Shown in pieces: positions 2,984-15,629 of a DNA stretch of 28,632 nt (position 1 is the stretch's first letter; every line of letters begins with the position of its first letter). The DNA is taken from positions 1-28,632 of the forward strand of contig CAIYOB010000383.1 of the NCBI GenBank assembly GCA_903927685.1. Reading direction: 5' to 3'. This DNA comes from an uncultured Planctomycetaceae bacterium. Its GTDB lineage: Bacteria; Planctomycetota; Planctomycetia; Pirellulales; Pirellulaceae. Position numbers and translations under genes: made by a program. The notes below the pieces were generated by a model. It was not told the DNA's origin, did no database searches, and saw only the letters and a program-made list of their open reading frames with translations.

Positions 2984-5500
2984 GTGTCCCGGCCCATTCC
3001 CCTTGACGGAGTCATAACCTTGATCGGGGTCGTGCCAGTTCTGCCGACGTTGACAGCTTTGGCGCTGGCGTTGCCGGCGCTGCTGCTGTCGATCGTCACG
3101 GCCTTGGCGGCGTTGCGCCGCCCGGATGTCGCACGGCAAGTCCTGCGCCTGGCCTGGCAGCAGAAGTACGCCCTGTTGCTGCTGGCGGCATGCGGCTTGG
3201 CCGTCAGCTGGGCTGGAGCCCACTGGCCGGGGCGCGGCGGCGGGCGGAACGTCGCCACACCCGCGGGCGGAGCGGATTGGCCGCTGGATCGCGGGGGGGT
3301 GCAGCGGCGCGGCTGGGTGCCGGGCGTCTCCAATCCGGCCAGCGGTTCGCTCCGCTGGTCGACCGGCCGCACCGGCGAGGCGTTCTGGTCGTCGCCGGCG
3401 GTCGTCGGCGACCGCGTCTATGGCGTATCCTCGCGCGGCGATCGGGCCTTGATCGGCTGCTGGGACGCGGAGACCGGCGAGCCGTTGTGGAGTTCCGCGC
3501 CCGCCGGCTACCGGGCCACGTTCTCGTCGCCCGTGATCTCCGGACGATACTTGTTGTGCGGCGAAGGCTTGCATCACGCTCGTCTGGCGAGGGTCGTGTG
3601 CCTGGATCTGGAAGCACCGGACGCGGGTCGAGTCTGTTGGACGTTCACCACCAACGGCCACGTGGAATGCACGCCGGTGGTCGCCGCGGGACGCGTGTAC
3701 GTCGGAGCGGGCGACGACGGCATCTACTGCCTGCGGTTGGATCCGGCGGCGGCGGACCGGGACCGCGTCGTCTGGCACGCACCGGGGGACCGTTATCCGG
3801 ATGCCGAGACCAGCCTGGCGGTCTGGCAGGATCGTGTCTACGCCGGGCTCGGGCTGGGAGGAACCGCGCTGTGCGTCCTGGACGCCACGACCGGCGAGGA
3901 GCTGGCTCGGCGACCGCTGCCTTACCCGGTCTTCAGTCCGCCGGCGATCGCGGGTGATCGGTTGTTTGTCGGGATGGGACGCGGCGACTATGTGCGACCG
4001 ATCGCAGATCCCGCGGGCAGCCTGCGGTGCTTTGAGCTGGCCGGCTGGAAAGAATGCTGGTCGGCAGAACTTCCGGCAACTGTGCTGGGCGCCGTCGCCG
4101 CAACTTCGGATCGCGTCGTGGCCGCGTGCAGCGACGGCTGCGTGTATCTGCTGGACCACGCGGGCCAACTGCTGCGCAGGTGGGACAGCCGTTCGCCGCT
4201 GGTCGCGGGGCCGGCGGTCAGCGACCGCTTGGTGTGCGTGGTGAATCAAGACGGTCTGTTGGTGGCCCTGGACGCGCGCTGGCTGCAGCCGGTGTGGGAA
4301 GCCCGCTTGGGCGCGCCGGGGCGATACTTCAGCGCCCCGGTCATTGCCCGGGGGCACGTCTACGTGGGGACGCCGGAGGACGGCTTGCAGTGCCTGGGCG
4401 CCCCCTCGTCCCAAACCGAGGATGACCGCTGGCCAGGGGCAGGCGGCGGCGCGGGCGCGGCCGGCTGCCGGGACGGTTCGCTGATCCCGCCGCAAGGCCG
4501 CGTGCGGTGGCAGTTCGACCGTCTGGCCCCGGACGCGGCTCGGCTGGAGGTGACGGCCGGCGTCGCCATCGCCGCCGGGACATTGGTCGTTCCCTTTCGC
4601 GCGGAAGCCGACGCGGGGTTGCTGGCGTTGGCGATGGATGAAGCGAAAGAACCACGGCCCCGCTGGGTGCATGCGTTCCCGGCCGGCGCGGCGACCGAAT
4701 CGCCGGCGATCGCGGGCGGTCGCGTGTTTGCCGTCACGGGCGCGCCCGGCGCCTCGCCTGGCCGCCTGCTGGCCTTGGATCTGGCGACGGGCCGGGGACT
4801 GTGGACACGGGCGTTATCGGCGCCGAACGCGGCGCTGACGGTTTCCGCGGAGCGCGTGTTGGTGCAAGAGTCGCCGGGGCGGTTGGCCAGCATCGACCTG
4901 GATGGCCATCGGGAGTGGACTTCCGAAATCGGTCACCGGGCGCATGGTCTCGATGCCTCGACTTCCATCCTGGTCGCCGCCGTCCAGACGCCGCCGTCAC
5001 TGGTGGCCATCGACGCGCCCAGCGGCCGAACGCTGTGGACCTGCCGCTTGCCGCAGCCGGCCATCACGCCGCCGGCCGTGCGCGGCGTGCGGATCTGCCT
5101 GGCGGATGCGTCCGGCGTACATGTTCGTTCGCTGCTCGACGGCCAAGCGTTGGCTCAAGCGGAAGTTGCCGTCAGCGGCCCGCTGTATGCCGCTCCCGAT
5201 CGTTTCGCCTTGATCAGCGACCAGGGAACACTGGTGCTGGGCGATTCGGCCAGCGGCCTCGTTCTGGCTCGAGTGCCGGGAGCCGTCCCCGGCACGAGTC
5301 CACTGGTCGGATTCAACGGCGTCCTGTTCTGCGGCCGCGAGGCCATCCGCGCCGCCGACTTGCAGGGGCGGAACGTGCGAACCTGGGCGGAATTGGAGCT
5401 CACCCGGGTCACCGCCCAACCGGTTCTGCATGCCGGCCGGGTCTATGTCGGGCTCGCTGGCCGCGGTCTGGTTTGCCTGGCCGGAGACGATGTGCCGTGA
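2984..5500 (+). CDS. Membrane-anchored PQQ-like beta-propeller protein
   Basis: This 838-residue protein begins with hydrophobic segments, roughly residues 10-42 and 60-78, predicted to anchor it. Two tandem beta-propeller modules built from PQQ/quinoprotein-type repeats follow. Recurring blades show patterns such as SPAVVGDRVYG, CWDAETGEPLW, VVAAGRVYVGAGDDGIYCL, CVLDATTGEEL and SPAIAGGRVFAV, each ending in a D-x-x-x-G-x-x-x-W type turn. Such proteins bind a partner or ligand rather than necessarily using PQQ, and no dehydrogenase catalytic residues are evident. GTG at 2984 is the longest start, with AGAGG 9 bases upstream. TTG at 3020, preceded by GGAG at 8 bases, is a credible alternative that still keeps the anchors. 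The stop overlaps the next gene's start by 4 bases, so it is the first gene of a three-gene operon. Confidence 0.85.
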   Translation: MSRPIPLDGVITLIGVVPVLPTLTALALALPALLLSIVTALAALRRPDVARQVLRLAWQQKYALLLLAACGLAVSWAGAHWPGRGGGRNVATPAGGADWPLDRGGVQRRGWVPGVSNPASGSLRWSTGRTGEAFWSSPAVVGDRVYGVSSRGDRALIGCWDAETGEPLWSSAPAGYRATFSSPVISGRYLLCGEGLHHARLARVVCLDLEAPDAGRVCWTFTTNGHVECTPVVAAGRVYVGAGDDGIYCLRLDPAAADRDRVVWHAPGDRYPDAETSLAVWQDRVYAGLGLGGTALCVLDATTGEELARRPLPYPVFSPPAIAGDRLFVGMGRGDYVRPIADPAGSLRCFELAGWKECWSAELPATVLGAVAATSDRVVAACSDGCVYLLDHAGQLLRRWDSRSPLVAGPAVSDRLVCVVNQDGLLVALDARWLQPVWEARLGAPGRYFSAPVIARGHVYVGTPEDGLQCLGAPSSQTEDDRWPGAGGGAGAAGCRDGSLIPPQGRVRWQFDRLAPDAARLEVTAGVAIAAGTLVVPFRAEADAGLLALAMDEAKEPRPRWVHAFPAGAATESPAIAGGRVFAVTGAPGASPGRLLALDLATGRGLWTRALSAPNAALTVSAERVLVQESPGRLASIDLDGHREWTSEIGHRAHGLDASTSILVAAVQTPPSLVAIDAPSGRTLWTCRLPQPAITPPAVRGVRICLADASGVHVRSLLDGQALAQAEVAVSGPLYAAPDRFALISDQGTLVLGDSASGLVLARVPGAVPGTSPLVGFNGVLFCGREAIRAADLQGRNVRTWAELELTRVTAQPVLHAGRVYVGLAGRGLVCLAGDDVP

Positions 5501-8202
5501 CCCCACCGCGCTGGCTGTACCAGTTCGACGAGCCCTTGCCCGCGTCGTGCGACCCGGCGGCGGTGTGCGGCGGCAAAGGCGCGGTCCTGCGCACGTTGGC
5601 CGCCGCCCGCCTGCCGACGCCTCCCGGGTTCACGATTACGACCGACGCCTGCCGCGCGTACTTCGCCCACGGCCGACAGTGGCCGCAGGGACTGGCGGAA
5701 CAGATCCAGACGGCAGTCGGCGCACTGGAGCGAGCCGTTGCACAGTCCTTTGCTGCGCCGCCTCGTCCGCTGCTGTTGGCCGTCCGCAGCGGCGCGCCGG
5801 TCTCCCTGCCGGGGATGCTGCTCACGCTGTTGAATGTCGGCTTGACGCGTCAACTGGCCGAGGTGCTGGACCGTCCGGCGATCTGGTCGGCATACGCGGA
5901 ACTCGTGCGGGACTTGTCCGCGGCGCGCGGGATCGAGCGGTCGGCGGAACGGCGTTTCGACGCGTCGGGCGACGCACGAGCCGAGTGCCTGCAGCTGCTG
6001 GACCGGTGCGAACGGACGTGCGGCGAGCCGTTTCCGCAGGATCCGTGGGACCTGCTGTCGCTGGGGGTCTCGGCGGTCTTCGACTCGTGGGCCAGCGACC
6101 GGGCCGTCGCCTACCGCCGCTGGAGGCAATTGGATGATTCCTCCGGCACGGCCGTCACCGTCCAGGCAATGATCGCGACCGAGGCGGCGGGGGTGCTGTT
6201 TTCACACGATCCGCGGCAGCCGCAGGGTGATGCGTTGGTGATCGAGGCGGTGCGAGGTTCAGGCGCGTCTTTGGTCGCGGGCCACGTGACGCCGCAGCGG
6301 TACGAGGCCGCTCGGCAGACGCCCGGGATTGCGCAGGCTTCGCCGCCGCGCGAGTCGATCCTGAATGCGGCGCAGTTGGCCGATCTGTCTTCCCTGGCAC
6401 TGCAGGTCGAGTCGTTGCTGGGCGGGCCGGTGGACGTCGAGTGGGGCTGCGCGGCGGGACGGGTGTGGCTGTTCCAGGCTCGCCCGTTGGCTCCGCCGCC
6501 GGGCCGCGAGCCAACGGCGGAACTCTGGGCCGAGGAACGGCAGCGACTGCAGCACTCGGCTCGCCGGCACGGCACGCGGCGGTGGGTCCGGCATAACCTG
6601 GGCGAGACGCTGCCGGCCCCGACGCCGCTGACCTGGGACCTGGTCCGCCGCTGGATGAGCGGCCGCGGTGGTTACGGGCGCATGTACCGCAGCCTGGGTT
6701 ATGCGCCCTCGCGGCGCGTGTGCGAAGACGGCTTTCTGGAATTGGTGGCCGGCCGCATCTGCGCCGATCCGGATCGGCTGGCCGAGGTGTTCTGTGCCGG
6801 GCTCCCCCTGGGATACGATCTGGCGGCCCTGGAGGCGGACCCACGGCGATTGGACAGCGGGCCCACCGTGCTGGTCCCGGAACGCGCCGCTCCGTGGCTG
6901 CTGTTCCGCCTGCCGGGCCTGCTCTGGCGGATGTGGCGAGCTGGACGGTGCGTAAGGCGCGAATCGCGGTGCGTCGAGGAGCGGTTCGAGCAGCACGTGC
7001 TCCCGCCTTACCGGTCCTGGGTGCAGCAGCAGCGACACCTGGATCTGTCGCGGCTGTCCGCTCGCGAACTGGCCGAATTGCTGGAAGCCCGCTGTGCCCG
7101 GGTCCTGGACGACTTCGCCGCCGAATCGCTGCGGCTGGCGTTCTTCGCCGGCCGAGCCATGCAGACGCTGGAAAGCCGCCTGGTCCGCTTGCTGGGACCG
7201 CACGAAGGCAGCCGTGCGGCGCGCGATCTGATCCTGGGACTGGTCGCTCCTGGGGAGGCCTCGGGCGAGGTCGAGCTGTATCGAGTCGGACAGGGGCAGG
7301 CCAGCGTGGCGGAGTTCCTGGACCAGTTCGGCCACCGCGGCCCGGACGAAATGGAACTGGCCGCGCCGCGTTGGCGCGAGATGCCGGACCAAGTCGAGCG
7401 ACTGGCGGCCTGGTTGCGGGACAGCCAGGCACCGGATCCGGCGGCGTTGCGACAGCGGGCGGCGGAGCAGCGCCAGCACGCCTGGAACGAGTTGCCGGAC
7501 CGCTTGGCGCGCCACGGCGCATCGGCCTTCACCGAGGTCGTCCAGCAGGAAGCCCGGCGGGCGCAGCAGCTGCTGCCGTACCGCGAGTTGGCCCGACACG
7601 CGTTCCTGCTGGGCTACGAACTGATCCGGCAGGTCGTGAAGGAAATCGGCGGGCGCCGGGGCCTTGGCGACGACATATTCTTCCTGACGTACGACGAGCT
7701 AGGCTCCACCGACGCCTGCGGCCTGCCGTTCAGCGGGACCGGCCTGCTTTCCGACCGCCTGCGCCAGCGGCGGGAACGCTGGCAGCGGCTCCAGCGTGTG
7801 AGCGTGCCCGAGGTGATCGATCCCGACGGCCTGGATACGCTGGGGTGCCTGCCGGCGCAAGCCGCCGCCGGCGCCGCCCTGGACGCCCTCGCCGTATCTG
7901 CGGGCACGGCTCGCGGTCCCGTTCGGATCTGGACGCCGGCCAAGTCCAGGCAGGATCTGCCGGCCGGTTCGGTACTGGTCTGCCCGGCGCTCGATACGGG
8001 CCTGACGCCGCTGTTACTGCGTGCGGCCGCCGTCGTCGTCGAACGGGGCGGCCTGCTGTCACACGGGGCCCTGGTCGCCCGGCAGCTTGGCATTCCCGCA
8101 ATCGTGCTGCCCGACGCGATCCAACGACTGCACGACGGCCAGATGGTCGTCGTCGACGGCGATCGCGGTCGCCTGCTGGCCGAGGGAGGCTCCCCGCCAT
8201 GA
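5497..8202 (+). CDS. PEP-synthase/rifampin-phosphotransferase-like ATP-dependent phosphotransferase
   Basis: This 901-residue protein has three parts. Residues 1-335 are a PPDK/PEP-synthase-type ATP-binding domain with GGKG (K27), AVRSGA (R97), a PPDK-style SLPGMLLTLLNVGL segment, VDVEWG (E315) and FQARP (Q327, R329). Residues 340-780 are mainly helical and resemble the substrate-binding domain of rifampin phosphotransferase, including FGHRGPDEMEL, PRWRE and DDIFFLTYDEL. Residues 785-901 are the swivelling phosphohistidine domain, with LLSHGALVARQLGIPAIV and catalytic H856. The PEP/pyruvate-binding TIM barrel is absent. By family analogy, ATP phosphorylates H856 and the phosphate passes to an unknown acceptor. 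GTG at 5497 overlaps the upstream stop; the frame runs open further upstream, but that part is a shadow of the propeller gene. Its stop overlaps the next ATG. Rifampin itself need not be the substrate. Confidence 0.88.
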   Translation: MTPPRWLYQFDEPLPASCDPAAVCGGKGAVLRTLAAARLPTPPGFTITTDACRAYFAHGRQWPQGLAEQIQTAVGALERAVAQSFAAPPRPLLLAVRSGAPVSLPGMLLTLLNVGLTRQLAEVLDRPAIWSAYAELVRDLSAARGIERSAERRFDASGDARAECLQLLDRCERTCGEPFPQDPWDLLSLGVSAVFDSWASDRAVAYRRWRQLDDSSGTAVTVQAMIATEAAGVLFSHDPRQPQGDALVIEAVRGSGASLVAGHVTPQRYEAARQTPGIAQASPPRESILNAAQLADLSSLALQVESLLGGPVDVEWGCAAGRVWLFQARPLAPPPGREPTAELWAEERQRLQHSARRHGTRRWVRHNLGETLPAPTPLTWDLVRRWMSGRGGYGRMYRSLGYAPSRRVCEDGFLELVAGRICADPDRLAEVFCAGLPLGYDLAALEADPRRLDSGPTVLVPERAAPWLLFRLPGLLWRMWRAGRCVRRESRCVEERFEQHVLPPYRSWVQQQRHLDLSRLSARELAELLEARCARVLDDFAAESLRLAFFAGRAMQTLESRLVRLLGPHEGSRAARDLILGLVAPGEASGEVELYRVGQGQASVAEFLDQFGHRGPDEMELAAPRWREMPDQVERLAAWLRDSQAPDPAALRQRAAEQRQHAWNELPDRLARHGASAFTEVVQQEARRAQQLLPYRELARHAFLLGYELIRQVVKEIGGRRGLGDDIFFLTYDELGSTDACGLPFSGTGLLSDRLRQRRERWQRLQRVSVPEVIDPDGLDTLGCLPAQAAAGAALDALAVSAGTARGPVRIWTPAKSRQDLPAGSVLVCPALDTGLTPLLLRAAAVVVERGGLLSHGALVARQLGIPAIVLPDAIQRLHDGQMVVVDGDRGRLLAEGGSPP

Positions 8203-9005
8203 GCGACCTCTGGCGAAACGCCTGCTGCCGCCTGGGAGACGTCTTGCTGGGCTGGCTGCTGTGGCTGCCGCGCGACGCGGCCTTGGTGCTGCTTGCGCTC
8301 GTTTCGGTGCTGCTGGCCCTCGGCCTCCGCCGCCTGGTGACGGACGCTGTCCTGTTGCGACGAATCCGGCAGGACGAGCGGCGACTGAAGGAACGGATCC
8401 GCCAGGCGCGGGTCGACCGCGACGCCTCGGCACGAGCCCGTTATCGGCGGACCGCCGGAGCCGTGGCCCTGCTCCGGCTCCGCCAGGAGCTGCGCGCCCT
8501 CGCGGTCGGTTTGATTCCGCTGGCCCTGGTGGTGACGTGGGCCGCCGAGCGGATCCACCTGGTGCCGCCCGCGGCGAACGAGCCCGTCGAGTTCAGCGTC
8601 TGGCTGCCGTCTTCGGCCGTGGGCGAGGTCGCGCATCTGGTGCCCGTGCAGGGACTGCAGAGCCAGAGCGGCTGGGTTCGGAGCATCGAGTCAGCGCGGC
8701 GCGGGACGGGGCCGCGCGGAACGGCCAAGTGGCTCCTGCAAGCCCCCGCCAGCGACCGCCCCTATCGGTTGACGGTCCGCTTTCGGGGGCAATCCTGGGA
8801 TCATTCGGTGCTGATTGGGCAACGCCGGTATGGTCCCACGCGGCTGCTTCACGGCGCCGACGTCGAGACCGAAATCCGGCTGCGCGAATACCGGCCGTTC
8901 GGCATCGGCGGTGGCGGCGGGCTGTCGTCGTGGCTGCTGGCCTATCTCGCCTTGGCGGCGATCGCCTATCCGCTGCTGAAGCGGCTGGTGGGAGGCGAGT
9001 CGTGA
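8199..9005 (+). CDS. Three-helix membrane protein resembling DUF106/EMC3/TMCO1
   Basis: This 268-residue protein starts at ATG 8199, overlapping the previous stop by 4 bases (ATGA). The predicted layout is TM1 at about 27-43, a long Arg/Glu-rich amphipathic or coiled-coil segment at 44-97, TM2 at 101-116, a soluble beta-like domain of about 125 residues (118-240), a Gly5 stretch and TM3 at 243-261. A helix, a cytoplasmic coiled coil and two more helices is the plan of DUF106/EMC3/TMCO1 proteins of the Oxa1/YidC superfamily, which insert membrane proteins. The large domain between TM2 and TM3 is an addition to that plan. The assignment rests on topology and residue pattern only, so a generic membrane partner of the phosphotransferase remains possible. 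The 178 bases after it hold no recognisable gene. Confidence 0.7.
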   Translation: MSDLWRNACCRLGDVLLGWLLWLPRDAALVLLALVSVLLALGLRRLVTDAVLLRRIRQDERRLKERIRQARVDRDASARARYRRTAGAVALLRLRQELRALAVGLIPLALVVTWAAERIHLVPPAANEPVEFSVWLPSSAVGEVAHLVPVQGLQSQSGWVRSIESARRGTGPRGTAKWLLQAPASDRPYRLTVRFRGQSWDHSVLIGQRRYGPTRLLHGADVETEIRLREYRPFGIGGGGGLSSWLLAYLALAAIAYPLLKRLVGGES

Positions 9006-9183: not shown

Positions 9184-12100
9184 TTACAGCCAGTCGCCGA
9201 CCAGGTCCAGGTCGTAGCCCAGCGGCGGCGTCTCGCTGGCTTCGTCGGCACCCCCGGCTGCGGCGATCGCCCGGACGCGTTCGAAAGCCACGGCTCGAGC
9301 GAGCAGGTCCAGTTCCGCGTCAGTCGTCAGGGTGGCCGAGTCGCCGACGGCCGCCAGTTGGTCGTCATGCGGTGAATCCTGCAGGACGGCCCGCCCGGCA
9401 TCGCCTCCGCTGGTGGCTTCGACACGCTCGGCGCCCGCCGCTTCCACGGCATAGTTCCAGACGACGGCCGTCCCGCCGGCCGGCAACGGGCTGGCAACTT
9501 CGTCACGCACCGCAGCATAGCTGGGCTGCGTGCGGAGAACTTCGCTGGCGGCCGAGCCCGCATAGGTCACGGTGTCCCGGCCGGCTCCCGCGTCGATCGT
9601 CACGATCTTTGTGTCGGCGGTCGCAAACGATCTGACGGGGCCGCCGTTGACCGTGACCTGCACGGCGCCGCCGACAGCTTGAACGTCGATCTGATCCGCG
9701 CCGGATGTTCCCCGCACCACGGCCGACGAAACGTCCAGCGGCTCGTAGACCGTCGCCTGCCGGGGCGTGGCCGAGCCGAATACCATCCGCTTGTTGACGC
9801 ACGCCGCCCGCAAGCCCAACTCGCCAAAATTGTAGTCAATGCCGTGCTCGTCGGCGCCGATCGCGATCCCCGTAATCCGGTCCGCACCGGCGGTGCCCCG
9901 CGCTTCCCGGCCAGGCAGGACGATCCCCACGGACTCGCTGCCGTCCAGGAAGCAGGCCGGCTGGGTCGTCTGGATCAGGTCGTACGTCCCCGGCTCCAGG
10001 TCCTCGAAGTGATACCAGCCGTCGGGGCCGGTCAGATCGGCCTGGACCAGCTGTCCAGCCCGCCATAGGGCGATTTCCACCTGGGGAAGCCCGAGTTCGA
10101 TTGGCGCTCCGGCGGCATCGACGTCGCGGCGGCCGTCCGCGTCGACGTCGGCGTACACGAAGCCGGACAGGCTGCCCCGGATCCGGCGATTGCCAAAATC
10201 GTTGCCGTCGTCGAACTGGCCGGACACGAGCGTGACGGTGTAGGTGCCCGCGGGAGGCGCGGTCTGGACCCAACCGGTCGGCAATTCCTCGTGCAGCGAG
10301 TAAACACCCGGCGGGACCGCGAACGAGTAGCGTCCTTGAGCATTCGTCTGAGCCACTCGGGTGACGGCATTTCCCAGGCCATCGATGCCGTTCAAACGAA
10401 TCGTCCAATCGGGCAGCAGCGATTCGTCGGTGTCCTTGATGCCATTGCCGTTCTCGTCGTTGAATTTGACGCCGCCCACGGATCCGTCGCGGAAGTTACC
10501 GAAATCACGGTTCTCGGTGACGCCGCACGAGGCCAGCGTCAGTTGATAGCCCCGGGTCCCGTTGGGCGCCGTGACGATGCCCGCGCCGGGCAGCGGGGAC
10601 GACTGCGTCCAGGTCGCATCCAGTAACGCCTCATAGACCGTGTACGTCCCGGGGGGCACGGAAAACGTATAGCTTCCGTCGGCGTCGGTTGTGGCCGTTC
10701 GCTGGACCGAGTTTCCCAAGCCATCGGAGCCGGTCAGCTGGATGGTCCATCCGCTCAACCCGGGTTCCCCAGTGTCCTTGACTCCGTTGCCGTTTCGATC
10801 GTCGAACTTGACGCCCTTCGCCGTCGAATCGCAGTAGTTGCCGAAATCGTTGCCCGCGTCCGTTTCGCCGGACGTCAGGGTTATCTGATAGCCCCGCGTG
10901 CCGTTGGGCGCCGTGACGATCCCGGTGCCCGGCTGCGGAGCCGACTGGTGCCAATGGTCGCCGATCAACGCTTCGTACACGATGTAGGTCCCCGGCGGAA
11001 CCCGGAACGAATAGGCTCCGTCGCTGTCCGTCGTCGTCTGCCGATCGACCGCGTTGCCGAGCCCGTCTGTACCCGTCAGCCGGATGGCCCACCCCAATCG
11101 GCCCGGTTCGCCGGCGTCCCGGACGCCATTGCCGTTGGTGTCTTCGTACTTGACGCCGCTCTTGGTTGCCTCAGGGGAATTGCCGAAGTCCAGGTCATCC
11201 AGCCCGCTGTTGGGATCGCAGGGCTGAATCGTGACCGCGTAGCCGTAATCGCCCAAGCGGATCGAGCCCGTATCGAGTCCCGGGGCGAGGACGGCGTGCT
11301 GCGACTCGCGCGGGTAGCTTTGGGTCCAGTCGTCGTTCCGCACTTCAACCACAATGTACGCTTGCGGTGTGCCCGCGGGGCATGCGCCTCCCGGAGCCGG
11401 CGCGGCGGTGTCCAGGGCCAATTGGTACCGACCGTCGGCGCCGGTCGTCACGAAGCCGTCCGGCGAACCGTCCTGCGGGACCGCACCGGCGAGGAATTCA
11501 GACTGCTGCAGGACGCCATCGCCGTTCTGGTCCAGGTACGCGGCGATTCGCCACCCTTCGATACCCGCGTCGCCGGCGTCCGGTTGGCCGTTGTAGTCTC
11601 GATCCTCGAATTTCCGGCCCGCGACAACCGCTTGCACGCGCAGATAACGAGTCACCGTGAGCGGATCGTTCTGGTTGGCGTCCGCAATGCCGTCCAGACG
11701 CGCGCCGTCGGCAAAGGACATCGATCCGGCGAGCGTCATCTGGAACGGCACGGTCAGCCCGGCCCCCACGGCCTCGAAATGGATCAGGCTGAACTCGCTG
11801 GCGGCAGGAGCGAGCGGATCGGGCGGGAGCTTGCCGATCGCCTGACCCAGGCCGGCGGCCGGCAGGCTCGCGCCGCGCAGGCCGAGAATCTCCTGGCTAT
11901 GCGGGTCGGCCGCGTCGTCGACGTTGAATTCGCTTACGGACCGCTGCAAGGGGAAACTGGCGGTGACCACCGCGTTGGGCACAGTCGGAGGCGGAACAGG
12001 GATCGTGGCGGGACTTGTCGGAGGCGTTGCGCTGCCGCTGGGATACCGCAGGATGTCATCCCGCCATTGCAGGTCCAAGGGCAATGCGATCACGCCGGCG

Positions 12101-12348
12101 GGCGTCCCCAAAGTCCGTTGATCCTCCGTGGTCACGCTCAGGAAGAGCGTCTCGCCAACTCGAGCCGAGCTGAGCGGGGCCCCGCGAGTACCGCTGTTGT
12201 CGGCATATAACTGGACGTCTAGATCCAAAGTTGCGAGCAGGCGCCGACTCTCTAACGGTTCAAACGCCGCTCGGCGCAGGACGCAGACGGGGCGCACTCG
12301 ATCCGCGCGACGCCGCCAGCGGGACAACGAGCTACGAAGCCAACGCAT
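9184..12348 (-). CDS. Large secreted SdrD B-like repeat protein
   Basis: This 1054-residue protein carries the planctomycete-type N-terminus of giant extracellular proteins: a basic Arg-rich start, then FEPLESRRLLA near residue 32-42. Residues about 50-235 resemble a cohesin- or adhesion-like beta domain. SdrD B-like (Cna_B-type) domains follow from about residue 244, with three closely similar units at 398, 512 and 626 and another near 729. Each opens with a Ca-binding-like DxNGNGxxDxGE loop and contains the PPGTY and DFGN signatures. The C-terminal 200 residues hold Asp/Gly-rich stretches (GTSGADQIDV, DAGAGRDTV) resembling RTX or haemolysin-type turns. It is probably a surface or matrix protein. 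The ATG at 12348 is preceded 9 bases upstream by GGAGGG; an upstream in-frame start is unlikely. No sorting signal or dockerin is visible. It follows the SDR gene by 111 bases. Confidence 0.85.
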   Translation of the reverse strand: MRWLRSSLSRWRRRADRVRPVCVLRRAAFEPLESRRLLATLDLDVQLYADNSGTRGAPLSSARVGETLFLSVTTEDQRTLGTPAGVIALPLDLQWRDDILRYPSGSATPPTSPATIPVPPPTVPNAVVTASFPLQRSVSEFNVDDAADPHSQEILGLRGASLPAAGLGQAIGKLPPDPLAPAASEFSLIHFEAVGAGLTVPFQMTLAGSMSFADGARLDGIADANQNDPLTVTRYLRVQAVVAGRKFEDRDYNGQPDAGDAGIEGWRIAAYLDQNGDGVLQQSEFLAGAVPQDGSPDGFVTTGADGRYQLALDTAAPAPGGACPAGTPQAYIVVEVRNDDWTQSYPRESQHAVLAPGLDTGSIRLGDYGYAVTIQPCDPNSGLDDLDFGNSPEATKSGVKYEDTNGNGVRDAGEPGRLGWAIRLTGTDGLGNAVDRQTTTDSDGAYSFRVPPGTYIVYEALIGDHWHQSAPQPGTGIVTAPNGTRGYQITLTSGETDAGNDFGNYCDSTAKGVKFDDRNGNGVKDTGEPGLSGWTIQLTGSDGLGNSVQRTATTDADGSYTFSVPPGTYTVYEALLDATWTQSSPLPGAGIVTAPNGTRGYQLTLASCGVTENRDFGNFRDGSVGGVKFNDENGNGIKDTDESLLPDWTIRLNGIDGLGNAVTRVAQTNAQGRYSFAVPPGVYSLHEELPTGWVQTAPPAGTYTVTLVSGQFDDGNDFGNRRIRGSLSGFVYADVDADGRRDVDAAGAPIELGLPQVEIALWRAGQLVQADLTGPDGWYHFEDLEPGTYDLIQTTQPACFLDGSESVGIVLPGREARGTAGADRITGIAIGADEHGIDYNFGELGLRAACVNKRMVFGSATPRQATVYEPLDVSSAVVRGTSGADQIDVQAVGGAVQVTVNGGPVRSFATADTKIVTIDAGAGRDTVTYAGSAASEVLRTQPSYAAVRDEVASPLPAGGTAVVWNYAVEAAGAERVEATSGGDAGRAVLQDSPHDDQLAAVGDSATLTTDAELDLLARAVAFERVRAIAAAGGADEASETPPLGYDLDLVGDWL
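10180..11160 (-). repeat. Tandem SdrD B-like coding repeats with exact 342-base period
   Basis: Equivalent points at 11149, 10807 and 10465 (the GVK codons opening each unit) are exactly 342 bases, or 114 codons, apart. A 35-base segment at 10886-10920 matches 10544-10578 at 33 positions, far above the divergence of neighbouring parts. The third unit lacks the inserted segment (APNGTRGYQ in the first two) and is shorter. This suggests recent duplication or gene conversion of the first two units. Confidence 0.8.
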
Positions 12349-12357
12349 GGATGCAGA

Positions 12358-12363
12358 CCCTCC
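12358..12363 (-). promoter_or_regulatory. Ribosome binding site of the SdrD-like gene
   Basis: GGAGGG on the minus strand (12363-12358) lies 9 bases before the ATG at 12348. It decides the start against the longer open frame that begins upstream at 12453. The rest of the 111-base gap up to 12459 includes a T6 run just after the SDR stop, but I see no convincing stem before it. Confidence 0.65.
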
Positions 12364-12459
12364 GGAAACACGAACCAGCGCCGCATTCCGTGGGCCCCTG
12401 GCAACGTCCTGTCCCCCTCCAGGGTAATCAGGGAGAGTCGCGCATGCCAACAAAAAACA

Positions 12460-13449: not shown

Positions 13450-14724
13450 CTAATCCCTTAATTGAAACAGCCTTTTCAACGCTTCGATCAAGCCGTGCGG
13501 CGGGCCGCTCTCGGCTTCGTCCCGCAACGACTCCAGCGGCGGGTGCAGCAGCTTGTTCACCAACCGGTCGAACGAGCGGGTGATCTCGTTGCGGCTGCGT
13601 TCGTCCACATCGCCCAGCTTGTTTAACAACCGCCGCAACTCGTCGTTCTTGACTTCGTCCGCCTGGGCTTTCAGCCGCTGGATGGTCGGCCCGGTCGCCC
13701 GATGGTGCAACTCGGTCATGAACCGAGCCGTTTCCTCGTCGACGATGCGTTCCGCCTTGGGCCACTCTTTCTCGCGTTCCCGCCGATTGGTCTCGCACGC
13801 CGCTTTCAGATCGTCGATGGAATACAGGTAGACGCCCAGAAAGTCCCCCACCGCCGACTCGATGTCCCGCGGCACGGCCAAGTCCAGCATGAACAGGGGC
13901 CGCTGGTGGCGGGCCTGGTGGATCGGGCGAAAGGCGGCCCCGGTCAGGATCGGCTCGGCGGCGCCGGTCGTCGAGATCACCAGATCCGCCTCGGTCAAGG
14001 CGGCGTGCAAGTCGTCCCACGGCCGGGCTTGGGCTTGGATTCGTTCCGCCAATCCCTGGGCCCGCTCCAGGTGCCGGTTCACCACGGTGATGTCCCGGAC
14101 ACCTTCGTCGATCAGGTAGCGAACCGTCTCCTCGCCCATCTCGCCGGCGCCGATCACCAGGACGCGTTTGTCTTCGAATCGCTCGAAGATCTGCTTGGCG
14201 AAATCCGCCACGGCGACGCTCGGAATGCTGACTCGCCGTTGGTTGATCGCCGTCTCGTGCGCGACGCGCTTGGCGACGCGCATCGCGGCCTGAAACGCGG
14301 CGTTGGTCAGCGGCCCGGCGTTGTTCGTCGTGCGGGCCAACTCGTACGCCTGCTTGACTTGCGCCAGAATCTGGGCCTCGCCCACCACCATGCTGTCCAG
14401 GGCCGAAGCCACCATGAACAAGTGCCGGACGGCGTCCTCGCCGGTCCGCTCGAACAGCACGTCAAAAATGTCCGCCGACTCCAGTTGGTGGAAACCCGCC
14501 AAGAACTCGACCAATTGGTGATGCGTCGGACACTGCGCCGGATCCTCGGCGGCCGCATACACCTCGACCCGATTGCACGTGGACACCAGCACCGACTCGG
14601 CGGCCGGAAACCGCTCACGCAGATGCGCCAACGCGGTCGGCGCCTGGTCGCCGGAAAACGCCAGTCGCTCCCGCACTTCGACCGAGGCCGTATGATGGCT
14701 GCAGCCGACCAATTGGAACTTCAT
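13450..14724 (-). CDS. hemA: Glutamyl-tRNA reductase
   Basis: HemA reduces glutamyl-tRNA(Glu) with NADPH to glutamate-1-semialdehyde, the first committed step of C5-route tetrapyrrole synthesis. The 424-residue protein has the catalytic STCNRVE motif with nucleophile C50, the signature GEAQILAQVK, the NADPH-binding GAGEMG and the VVNRHLERA segment. It ends in the helical dimerisation domain (RLLNKLGDV to FDRLVNKLLHPP). Length and order match the family. The ATG at 14724 overlaps the stop of the upstream HemX/CcsA-like gene by 4 bases. The open frame continues far upstream, but that part is a shadow of the upstream gene. The SDR gene follows after 3 bases. HemA with a HemX-type neighbour is a known arrangement in several phyla. 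No other heme gene (hemC, hemL, hemB) lies in this window. Confidence 0.97.
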   Translation of the reverse strand: MKFQLVGCSHHTASVEVRERLAFSGDQAPTALAHLRERFPAAESVLVSTCNRVEVYAAAEDPAQCPTHHQLVEFLAGFHQLESADIFDVLFERTGEDAVRHLFMVASALDSMVVGEAQILAQVKQAYELARTTNNAGPLTNAAFQAAMRVAKRVAHETAINQRRVSIPSVAVADFAKQIFERFEDKRVLVIGAGEMGEETVRYLIDEGVRDITVVNRHLERAQGLAERIQAQARPWDDLHAALTEADLVISTTGAAEPILTGAAFRPIHQARHQRPLFMLDLAVPRDIESAVGDFLGVYLYSIDDLKAACETNRREREKEWPKAERIVDEETARFMTELHHRATGPTIQRLKAQADEVKNDELRRLLNKLGDVDERSRNEITRSFDRLVNKLLHPPLESLRDEAESGPPHGLIEALKRLFQLRD

Positions 14725-15629
14725 GGAGTCTCCCCGCGCGGCAAGTGGTCGGCGAGGCCCGCAGCAGGCGGAGTTGGCACCGCGGCGGAAGGACTGGCGT
14801 GCCGCGAAGGACCGAGCAGCACCATCCCCAGCACCAGCACCAGGAACACGAAACTGGCGAAGGTCAGGTAAGCCACTTTGCGGCCCTGCACCGCGGGCTT
14901 GTACAACGATTCGAATACCAGCACCACACTCAGCCATACGAACAAGATGCCCGACGTCCAGACGACGGGATCGGTCCAAGGCAGGGCGGCCTGACGTTGC
15001 AGCAAGTTCAAGACCACGCCGGCCAGCAGACCGGCGGCCAGCAGCCCCGACGAGAACAGCAGCGATCGCTGCGTGGCCTGCTGCAGCCATTCCAGGCTGG
15101 GCAGTTTCAGCCCGCCCTGCGGCGGCAACTTCCGTTTCAATCGCGACGATTGCACCAGGTACATGCTGCCGCTGACAAACCCCAGCATCACAACGATCGA
15201 GCCCACCATCAACGCCATCCCGTGCACCATGCCCCAGACGTACAGGGCCTGATCCCGCGGGAACGGCTCCGCGTGCCGGAACAACGAGGCGATCGCGATC
15301 AGCACCAACACCAGCGGCAGCATGAACACCCCATACGCCGCTTGGGGCCGACGAAGCGAACTCGTCAAGTACACGACGGCCACGCCCCAGGCCACTAGCA
15401 GCAGCCAATCAAACCAACCGGACAAAGGCGGTGTTTGATCCGGATTGGGGCTGGTTCGCAGCACGATGTAGATCGTCTGGGCCAGAATCCCGGCACCCGT
15501 GAACCCCAGCGTCCCCAGGATGCGCGCTGGCGAGCGGAGCATCAGACGCAACAGCTCCAGCAGCAAGGCCACCGAATAACTGGCGACAAAACACGACAGA
15601 TGTACGTGGGTCAGCGAGAAGCCGGTCAT
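14721..15629 (-). CDS. HemX/CcsA-type cytochrome c assembly membrane protein
   Basis: This 302-residue protein has about eight hydrophobic helices, matching the cytochrome c assembly (CcsA/HemX) family. Conserved-looking elements are an early His in THVHLSCF, the segment around VHGMALMVGSIVVMLGFVSGSMYLVQ with a central His, and a basic loop SSRLKRKLPP followed by a late pair of helices. The tryptophan-rich WWD heme-handling motif of true CcsA is not evident, so HemX, thought to affect GluTR levels, is a better guess than the synthetase itself. It overlaps hemA by 4 bases and begins 9 bases after the UroD-like gene, so all belong to one operon. The C-terminal 25 residues are Pro/Ala-rich and probably soluble. 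The ATG at 15629 has only a weak ribosome site, consistent with coupling. Confidence 0.85.
   Translation of the reverse strand: MTGFSLTHVHLSCFVASYSVALLLELLRLMLRSPARILGTLGFTGAGILAQTIYIVLRTSPNPDQTPPLSGWFDWLLLVAWGVAVVYLTSSLRRPQAAYGVFMLPLVLVLIAIASLFRHAEPFPRDQALYVWGMVHGMALMVGSIVVMLGFVSGSMYLVQSSRLKRKLPPQGGLKLPSLEWLQQATQRSLLFSSGLLAAGLLAGVVLNLLQRQAALPWTDPVVWTSGILFVWLSVVLVFESLYKPAVQGRKVAYLTFASFVFLVLVLGMVLLGPSRHASPSAAVPTPPAAGLADHLPRGETP

Follow-up and report, generated by a model that had tools for sequence, protein, structure and literature searches.

Three consecutive genes of an uncultured Planctomycetaceae bacterium, here called P1, P2 and P3, form a conserved planctomycete neighbour set that joins a phosphotransfer enzyme driven by adenosine triphosphate (ATP; P2) to an insertase-related membrane protein (P3) and a propeller (P1). 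They were analysed in a window of 28,632 nucleotides (GenBank assembly GCA_903927685.1, contig CAIYOB010000383.1, positions 1 to 28,632 of the forward strand). In divergent lineages the genes stay adjacent, are fused or change their order, which bears out the partnership proposed in a first-pass annotation of the same DNA, and the three genes very probably constitute one functional unit. All three reading frames are open on the plus strand and the genes are real, because database relatives exist for all three. The features of the proteins are as follows (TM, transmembrane segment).

2984..5500, plus strand: P1, membrane-anchored PQQ/BamB-type double β-propeller, 838 residues (domain and database matches; start GTG 2984 or TTG 3020)
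3059..3205, plus strand: hydrophobic segments of P1, residues 26-44 (strong) and 56-74 (weak), with an Arg-rich loop between them (hydropathy, charge counts)
5497..8202, plus strand: P2, RPH-type dikinase with ATP-grasp, middle substrate domain and C-terminal phosphohistidine swivel domain, 901 residues (domain and profile matches)
7582..7587, plus strand: codons of P2 Arg696-Glu697, equivalent to the acceptor-site pair Arg666-Glu667 of RPH-Lm (profile alignment to Listeria RPH 5hv2)
8062..8064, plus strand: codon of P2 His856, equivalent to the swivel histidine His825 of RPH-Lm (profile alignment to Listeria RPH 5hv2)
8199..9005, plus strand: P3, DUF106/EMC3-TMCO1-like (Oxa1 superfamily) protein with three TMs and an insert of ∼120 residues between TM2 and TM3, 268 residues (family profiles)
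8283..8534, plus strand: P3 TM1 (29-47), charged cytoplasmic hairpin and TM2 (94-112), the stretch aligned to MJ0480 (hydropathy, profile alignment)
8553..8978, plus strand: predicted periplasmic insert of P3 (about 119-241) and TM3 (242-260) (hydropathy)

The 4-base overlaps claimed at first pass were read directly in the sequence as GTGA at 5497-5500 (P2 start GTG 5497, P1 stop TGA 5498-5500) and ATGA at 8199-8202 (P3 start ATG 8199, P2 stop TGA 8200-8202). At the Anammoximicrobium locus L001 the first aligned residues of P2 and P3 each lie 4 bases inside the preceding gene, which agrees with overlaps of the same kind, provided that translation starts at these residues.

Linkage and fusion across Planctomycetota

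Linkage was assessed in 294 Planctomycetota genomes drawn around the Anammoximicrobium metagenome-assembled genome (L001) that had been found by P3. Using a P2 profile built from database matches regardless of gene context and a locus threshold of E ≤ 1e-100, 28 P2 loci were located in 26 of the 294 genomes. P3 stood beside P2 or was fused to it in one frame at 23 of the 25 readable loci, so that homologues which are usually unlinked, the outcome named at first pass as speaking against a system, were not seen. Direct adjacency was found at 17 loci (G001, G213, G340, G294, G275, G476, G307, G325, G436, G354, G480, G469, G394, G272, G472, G206 and G483) and fusion to the P2 C-terminus at six [G368, G445 (two loci, one cut by a contig end), G339 (two loci) and G232]. 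The loci of G313 and G473 are split by contig ends, the other contig carrying P2::P3 in G313 and P3 in G473; the G412 locus is unreadable. P1 was present in the cluster at all 25 loci where it could be read, a count that leaves out G472 and G206 (contig ends within P2) and G473. The order changes to P1-P3-P2 at G272 (L054). A P1-type gene follows the fused protein in L077 and follows P3 in L080; such a gene after P3 was read on the other contig of G473 and, as a second P1-type gene, downstream of the fused fragment in G313.

Among 283 crudely called genes around the loci, the only families common to at least 12 loci were P1, P2, P3 and an FG-GAP protein. The calling took the longest frames in GC-rich DNA, which keeps opposite-strand shadow frames and loses some true genes; a family in six loci proved by position to be such a shadow frame. 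The FG-GAP-type cluster has 13 members, and all six that were scanned matched FG-GAP models. As a side observation, an FG-GAP repeat gene lies directly upstream of P1 in eight loci (L041, L044, L047-L050, L063 and L064), with coordinates as listed for four of them. It is missing upstream of P1 in the window, where a minus-strand frame stands instead.

L041 13040-14956: FG-GAP gene
L044 10329-12224: FG-GAP gene
L049 3205-5049: FG-GAP gene
L064 10193-12178: FG-GAP gene

At E ≤ 1e-60, a P1 profile built from database matches only reached 29 of the 294 genomes, and P2 is present in 23 of these (p about 1e-25). In five of the remaining six (G217, G277, G311, G341, G404 and G426), which have no strong P2 match, a shorter or cut P2-like gene comes right after P1; the sixth (L088) is a short contig. 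L083, L084, L086 and L087 carry P1-type single propellers (in tandem in L083 and L084), and a shorter P2-like gene comes next; the stretches read, which in L084 stop just past P2, showed no P3-like gene. Per genome, three candidates were scored for profiles A3 and A4, up to eight for A5 and A7 and up to 13 for A1, and absences are therefore soft.

The linkage of P3 to P2 was also measured with profiles free of adjacency or fusion circularity. The Pfam EMC3 model PF01956, which is blind to P2, matched nine of the 294 genomes; seven matches lie directly beside P2, including all three above the curated cut-off (hypergeometric p = 6e-7 for the genome overlap with P2). The two matches away from P2 (G452:C21 and G235:C307) were treated as chance because the surrounding stretches that were read hold no A5 match; both fall below the curated cut-off. 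Profile A1, built from database P3 relatives only, matched two of 196 genomes from the order, each time next to P2. A wider search with A5 matched 24 of the 294 genomes and is counted as support only.

The five uncut fused frames are 1186-1276 residues long and consist of P2 followed by 373-404 residues with an EMC3-like region. The P3 profile used for locus scoring contained the fused sequences, so that their scores there hold by construction; a leave-out test replaces them. A P3 profile without fused rows matched the fused proteins L062 (4e-10), L059 (2.2e-5) and L060 (5.1e-5) and, weakly, L061 (0.008) and L064 (0.007), as well as the split-contig fragments L077 (2e-13) and L080 (3.5e-10). 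Each fused lineage left out in turn was still found at 1e-28 to 1e-37. Because both kinds of profile recover it, the P2::P3 fusion, as judged by profile comparison, holds without circularity.

The divergence of P1, P2 and P3 is correlated (r 0.78-0.85; none of 2000 permutations reached the observed value) over 17 loci, the only ones used, at which P1, P2 and P3 were all well covered. Co-inheritance would lead to such a correlation, but so would common ancestry by itself. In the tree, the P3-less loci and the reordered locus branch apart from each other and from the large fused branch; loci cut by contig ends include L053, L065, L022, L056 and L019.

The three proteins

P2 matched the Pfam models PPDK_N (2.9e-41) and PEP-utilizers mobile domain (1.8e-19), and its database relatives share 37-100% identity (best 120 of 1108). 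The swivelling-histidine phosphotransfer given for this fold at first pass is backed by the residues involved, the roles of which in RPH-Lm (His825, Arg666-Glu667, Lys22 and Arg117) are described in excerpts of PMC4844700; the matching allows for a 12-residue numbering offset between 5hv2 and 5fbs. Across 35 frames examined, Arg696 and Glu697 are kept in all 33 aligned P2s and His856 in all 32, the remaining frames having gaps at these positions in cut frames. Lys27 and Arg97 of P2 fall within the ATP-grasp motifs where RPH-Lm has Lys22 and Arg117, Arg97 being matched by motif in a stretch outside the P2-RPH alignment. Lys27 is kept in 21 of 21 and Arg97 in 20 of 21 aligned P2s (the exception is E in L054); the other 14 of the 35 frames show a gap, in part through truncation and in part because the N-terminus is divergent in the fused and short branches.

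P2 shares with RPH/HpeHI-type dikinases the order ATP-grasp, substrate domain, C-terminal swivel. It differs in its position beside, or fused to, a membrane protein, in an N-terminal part most like pyruvate phosphate dikinase and in a score of 168.3 bits against the RPH equivalog NF041857, the cut-off of which is 999. By its conserved residues P2 is thus classed as an RPH-type dikinase outside the rifamycin-inactivating family. PF27448 is assigned by the protein database to most of the listed P2 relatives and was not seen in our own Pfam scans. Close relatives of P2 on plasmids were considered and rejected, since all 291 plasmid-borne matches have less than 60% identity and none covers 80%.

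For P3, the window protein alone gave no Pfam match, even at E ≤ 10. Its relative P0023 matches PF01956 EMC3_TMCO1 exactly at the cut-off (27.1 bits), and 10 of the 27 members of P3 alignment A5 match this model at E ≤ 0.01 (best 1.7e-9). Profile A6 (27 P3-family members, including fused and reordered versions) finds MJ0480 among PDB sequences at 5.3e-9, the next match being 0.16; with profile A5, which lacks the fused rows, MJ0480 is already first at 3.4e-4, followed by a match at 0.035. The alignment spans TM1, the hairpin and TM2 (profile positions 6-112), that of TM3 being insignificant. Because family members match PF01956 and family profiles find MJ0480, P3 is placed by family profile in the DUF106/EMC3 branch of the Oxa1 superfamily, which upholds the likeness to Oxa1/YidC-type proteins given at first pass. 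Excerpts of PMC8675477 define this superfamily by three core TMs, the first two of which flank a cytoplasmic hairpin; hydropathy and the MJ0480 alignment show this arrangement in P3, with a weak correspondence for TM3.

P3 has 34-100% identity to its database relatives (21 matches, itself included) and is the least conserved of the trio (median identity 0.26 over 17 loci). W114, R118, W178 and W245 are invariant in 27 aligned sequences, and the insert appears to have β character. P3 resembles the archaeal DUF106 protein MJ0480 (YidC-like) and EMC3/TMCO1 in that TM1, hairpin and TM2 align with MJ0480; it differs in being bacterial, apparently tied to a dikinase, equipped with the predicted outside insert and additional to YidC. 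The latter was found in 24 of 26 genomes searched (25 of the 26 P2 genomes, G313 being left out, plus G026) and missed in G257 and G445, both of which may be incomplete assemblies; a role of P3 as the housekeeping insertase was rejected on this ground.

P1 matched PQQ_2/BamB-like models of Pfam (6.5e-45), and propeller repeats of this type, matched as two propellers, cover it after the N-terminal segments. The start is uncertain, because the database copy P0144 (826 residues) is 12 residues shorter and corresponds to TTG at 3020. Database relatives have 31-100% identity (112 matches at E ≤ 7e-95, of 120), and they form a separate clade, below which E-values drop from 7e-95 to 2e-36. The N-terminus is predicted to run outside-in-outside, so that the propellers would probably be periplasmic; the hydropathy of the second segment (56-74) is 1.32, no better than false segments within the propellers. 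The relative L089 has, by eye, a signal-peptide-like start ahead of the same conserved N-terminal region. P1 has the same blade type as BamB and other PQQ-type propellers and differs from them in its predicted N-terminal membrane segments, its two propellers and its separate clade.

EMC1 likewise carries a PQQ-like propeller on the far membrane side, beside an EMC3-type protein (excerpts of PMC7188443), as is predicted for P1. P1 is set apart by its anchoring through N-terminal hydrophobic segments and by the lack of a specific sequence sign of EMC1 descent: EMC1_N matched one of 30 scanned P1-family members (4.6e-4), EMC1_C matched none of the 30 and EMC1 was not among the PDB matches listed for P1 (60 of 70). 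Precomputed Pfam lists give PF07774 or PF25293 for a few propeller relatives (P0194, P0218, P0247, P0259, P0260 and P0262), which are regarded as generic propeller cross-matches. P1 as an EMC1 relative therefore has no specific support from the Pfam scans or the PDB matches listed.

A cytoplasmic P2 fused to an outside-facing P3 N-terminus would need an additional crossing of the membrane; this fits the extra hydrophobic segment that hydropathy places between P2 and TM1 of P3 in four of five cases.

In line with the absence of a defence neighbour noted at first pass, PADLOC models gave no match to P1, P2 or P3 at E ≤ 0.01, and an anti-phage role was dropped. Elsewhere in the window, the minus-strand frame 13450-15408 encodes glutamyl-tRNA reductase (HemA) with ∼230 additional N-terminal residues without a Pfam match, and 9184-12453 on the minus strand encodes a large protein that looks secreted; it contains four SdrD_B-like stretches and, below threshold, a planctomycete extracellular motif.

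A second EMC3-like family and its phosphate-handling partners

Four weak matches of the P3 profile in genomes without P2 (G212, G360, G409 and G479) led to a second EMC3-like family, A7. They were rejected as stray P3 homologues, since they belong to this phosphodiesterase-linked family. Profile comparison of A7 with A5 gave a probability of 99.2%. A7 matched 44 of the 294 genomes, one match (G213) being a P3 of the first family. A phosphodiesterase gene of PF01663 type lies directly before the A7 gene at 24 of 25 loci with flanks; the phosphodiesterase profile was built from the four seed loci, which are among the 25, and without them the count is 20 of 21. The sole exception, L099, begins at the contig edge. 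The seed loci carry two phosphodiesterase genes in tandem, and all eight neighbours scanned match PF01663. Loci of the family include the four listed here and L092-L116.

L078 7986-8876, minus strand: A7 gene of seed locus
L079 8176-9144, plus strand: A7 gene of seed locus
L081 7955-8788, plus strand: A7 gene of seed locus
L082 7834-8691, minus strand: A7 gene of seed locus

One further gene family directly follows P3 in three related loci (G307, G436 and G480). The scanned member (G307; L046) is a calcineurin-like phosphoesterase.

L046 11089-12306: phosphoesterase-family gene after P3
L048 1-612: gene of the same family after P3
L050 3-938: gene of the same family after P3

With a phosphodiesterase-linked second family and, after P3, a gene family that has a phosphoesterase member, the EMC3-like proteins of Planctomycetota therefore keep company with phosphate-chemistry enzymes. 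The first-pass interpretation, which stood as regards gene partnership, P2 residues and P3 family, had left a choice between modification of a substrate and control of membrane-protein insertion; the recurrent phosphate-handling partners favour phosphorylation of a substrate over insertion control.

Proposed function and its alternatives

The mechanism put forward is a membrane-spanning phosphotransfer machine with P3 as its core and a membrane-held substrate, a proposal that we regard as evenly poised between right and wrong. P3 would form the membrane core, with its charged hairpin toward the cytoplasm and its large insert toward the periplasm, and P2, covalently joined to P3 in some lineages, would dock at the cytoplasmic side. 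By its likeness to RPH, P2 would move the β-phosphate of ATP onto His856, from which it would pass at the Arg696-Glu697 site to an acceptor delivered by the membrane core, most likely an alcohol that is lipid-linked or otherwise held in the membrane. P1, with periplasmic propellers on an N-terminal helix anchor, would bind or sense the outer part of the substrate or the cell surface.

Several observations weigh against this proposal. P2 occurs without P3 in G459 and G257, and the short-P2 clusters L083, L086 and L087 show no P3, so that P3 is not indispensable. Matches to P1 are weak or partial in G394 (55 bits), G313 (100), G294 (122) and the cut G445 locus (131), and in G473 (L022) the 350-450 bases upstream of P2 are without P1. 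The wide P3 profiles (A5, A6 and the script profile) hold sequences that were found via adjacency or fusion, and searches with them are therefore partly circular. As to topology, the fused protein L059 has two extra hydrophobic segments and L062 none that is clear, and the hydropathy plot is crude, the same threshold marking five false segments in the soluble P2. The substrate of P2 may be soluble.

The trio could be a bacterial counterpart of the endoplasmic reticulum (ER) membrane complex, EMC, in which P3 would insert membrane proteins or act as their chaperone, P1 would be the EMC1-like outside propeller and P2 would control insertion by phosphorylating the core or its clients. The common family of P3 with EMC3, TMCO1 and MJ0480 speaks for it, as do the PQQ-like repeats of EMC1 beyond the membrane (excerpts of PMC7188443) beside the PQQ-type double propeller of P1. 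We consider it unlikely, given that YidC is present in 24 of 26 genomes searched, that P1 is no closer to EMC1 than generic propellers are (EMC1_N 1/30, EMC1_C 0/30) and that the P2 kin of known function, HpeHI and RPH, act on small molecules according to excerpts of their accounts. The same preference for small molecules (HpeHI; excerpts of PMC12167813) would suit a P2 that is a dikinase of soluble metabolites held at the membrane by a degenerate insertase serving as an anchor only, P1 then being a sensor or scavenger in the periplasm. The P3-less clusters and the low conservation of P3 (median identity 0.26, 17 loci) fit such an anchor; its invariant W114, R118, W178 and W245 (27 sequences) would be unneeded for one, and P3 is retained at 23 of the 25 readable loci, which leaves this arrangement improbable to much the same degree.

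Inactivation of a rifamycin-like antibiotic in the fashion of RPH would account for the conserved active-site pair and histidine of P2. It is very improbable, however, in view of the 168 bits scored against an equivalog cut-off of 999 and of the RPH account in PMC4844700, in excerpts of which no membrane partner figures. That the genes merely travel together without a functional relation is scarcely credible. The patchy spread (26 of 294 genomes) and the correlated divergence (r 0.78-0.85) would fit joint transfer as a block, whereas gene fusion already contradicts it, and the changes of gene order, the overlaps or short gaps between genes at most loci and the persistence of the cluster down to 27% P2 identity (median 37%, 17 loci) stand against it as well.

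No description of a dikinase combined with an EMC3-like protein and a propeller was found in the open-access literature, most subscription papers lying outside this coverage, nor was anything found there on EMC3 in planctomycetes. Titles and abstract starts of the listed papers on EMC3/Oxa1/DUF106, EMC1, TMCO1 and RPH-type dikinases name no such system, and a text search of portions of PMC8887752 and PMC8675477 gave no mention of planctomycetes. In excerpts of PMC8675477, a 2021 analysis, the Oxa1 superfamily comprises four families, YidC in prokaryotes and TMCO1, EMC3 and GET1 in the ER, and non-archaeal PF01956 proteins are treated as EMC3 and TMCO1. Protein insertases have been reported as lipid scramblases (excerpts of PMC10491306).

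Returning to the phosphotransfer machine, a wider reading is offered tentatively and with some doubt: Planctomycetota could have turned DUF106/EMC3-type proteins of the Oxa1 superfamily into membrane cores for phosphoryl transfer, one family joined to an RPH-type dikinase that phosphorylates a membrane-held substrate and another joined to type I phosphodiesterases. The groove, which in other settings inserts proteins and scrambles lipids, would then present or flip the substrate. If true, a bacterial DUF106/EMC3-type family that stands beside YidC and is welded to an ATP-driven phosphotransferase would widen the roles of the Oxa1 fold. With the trio it can be tested directly whether grooves of this kind act on lipids or lipid-linked substrates, and the fused P2::P3 is a single-chain protein suited to structural work.

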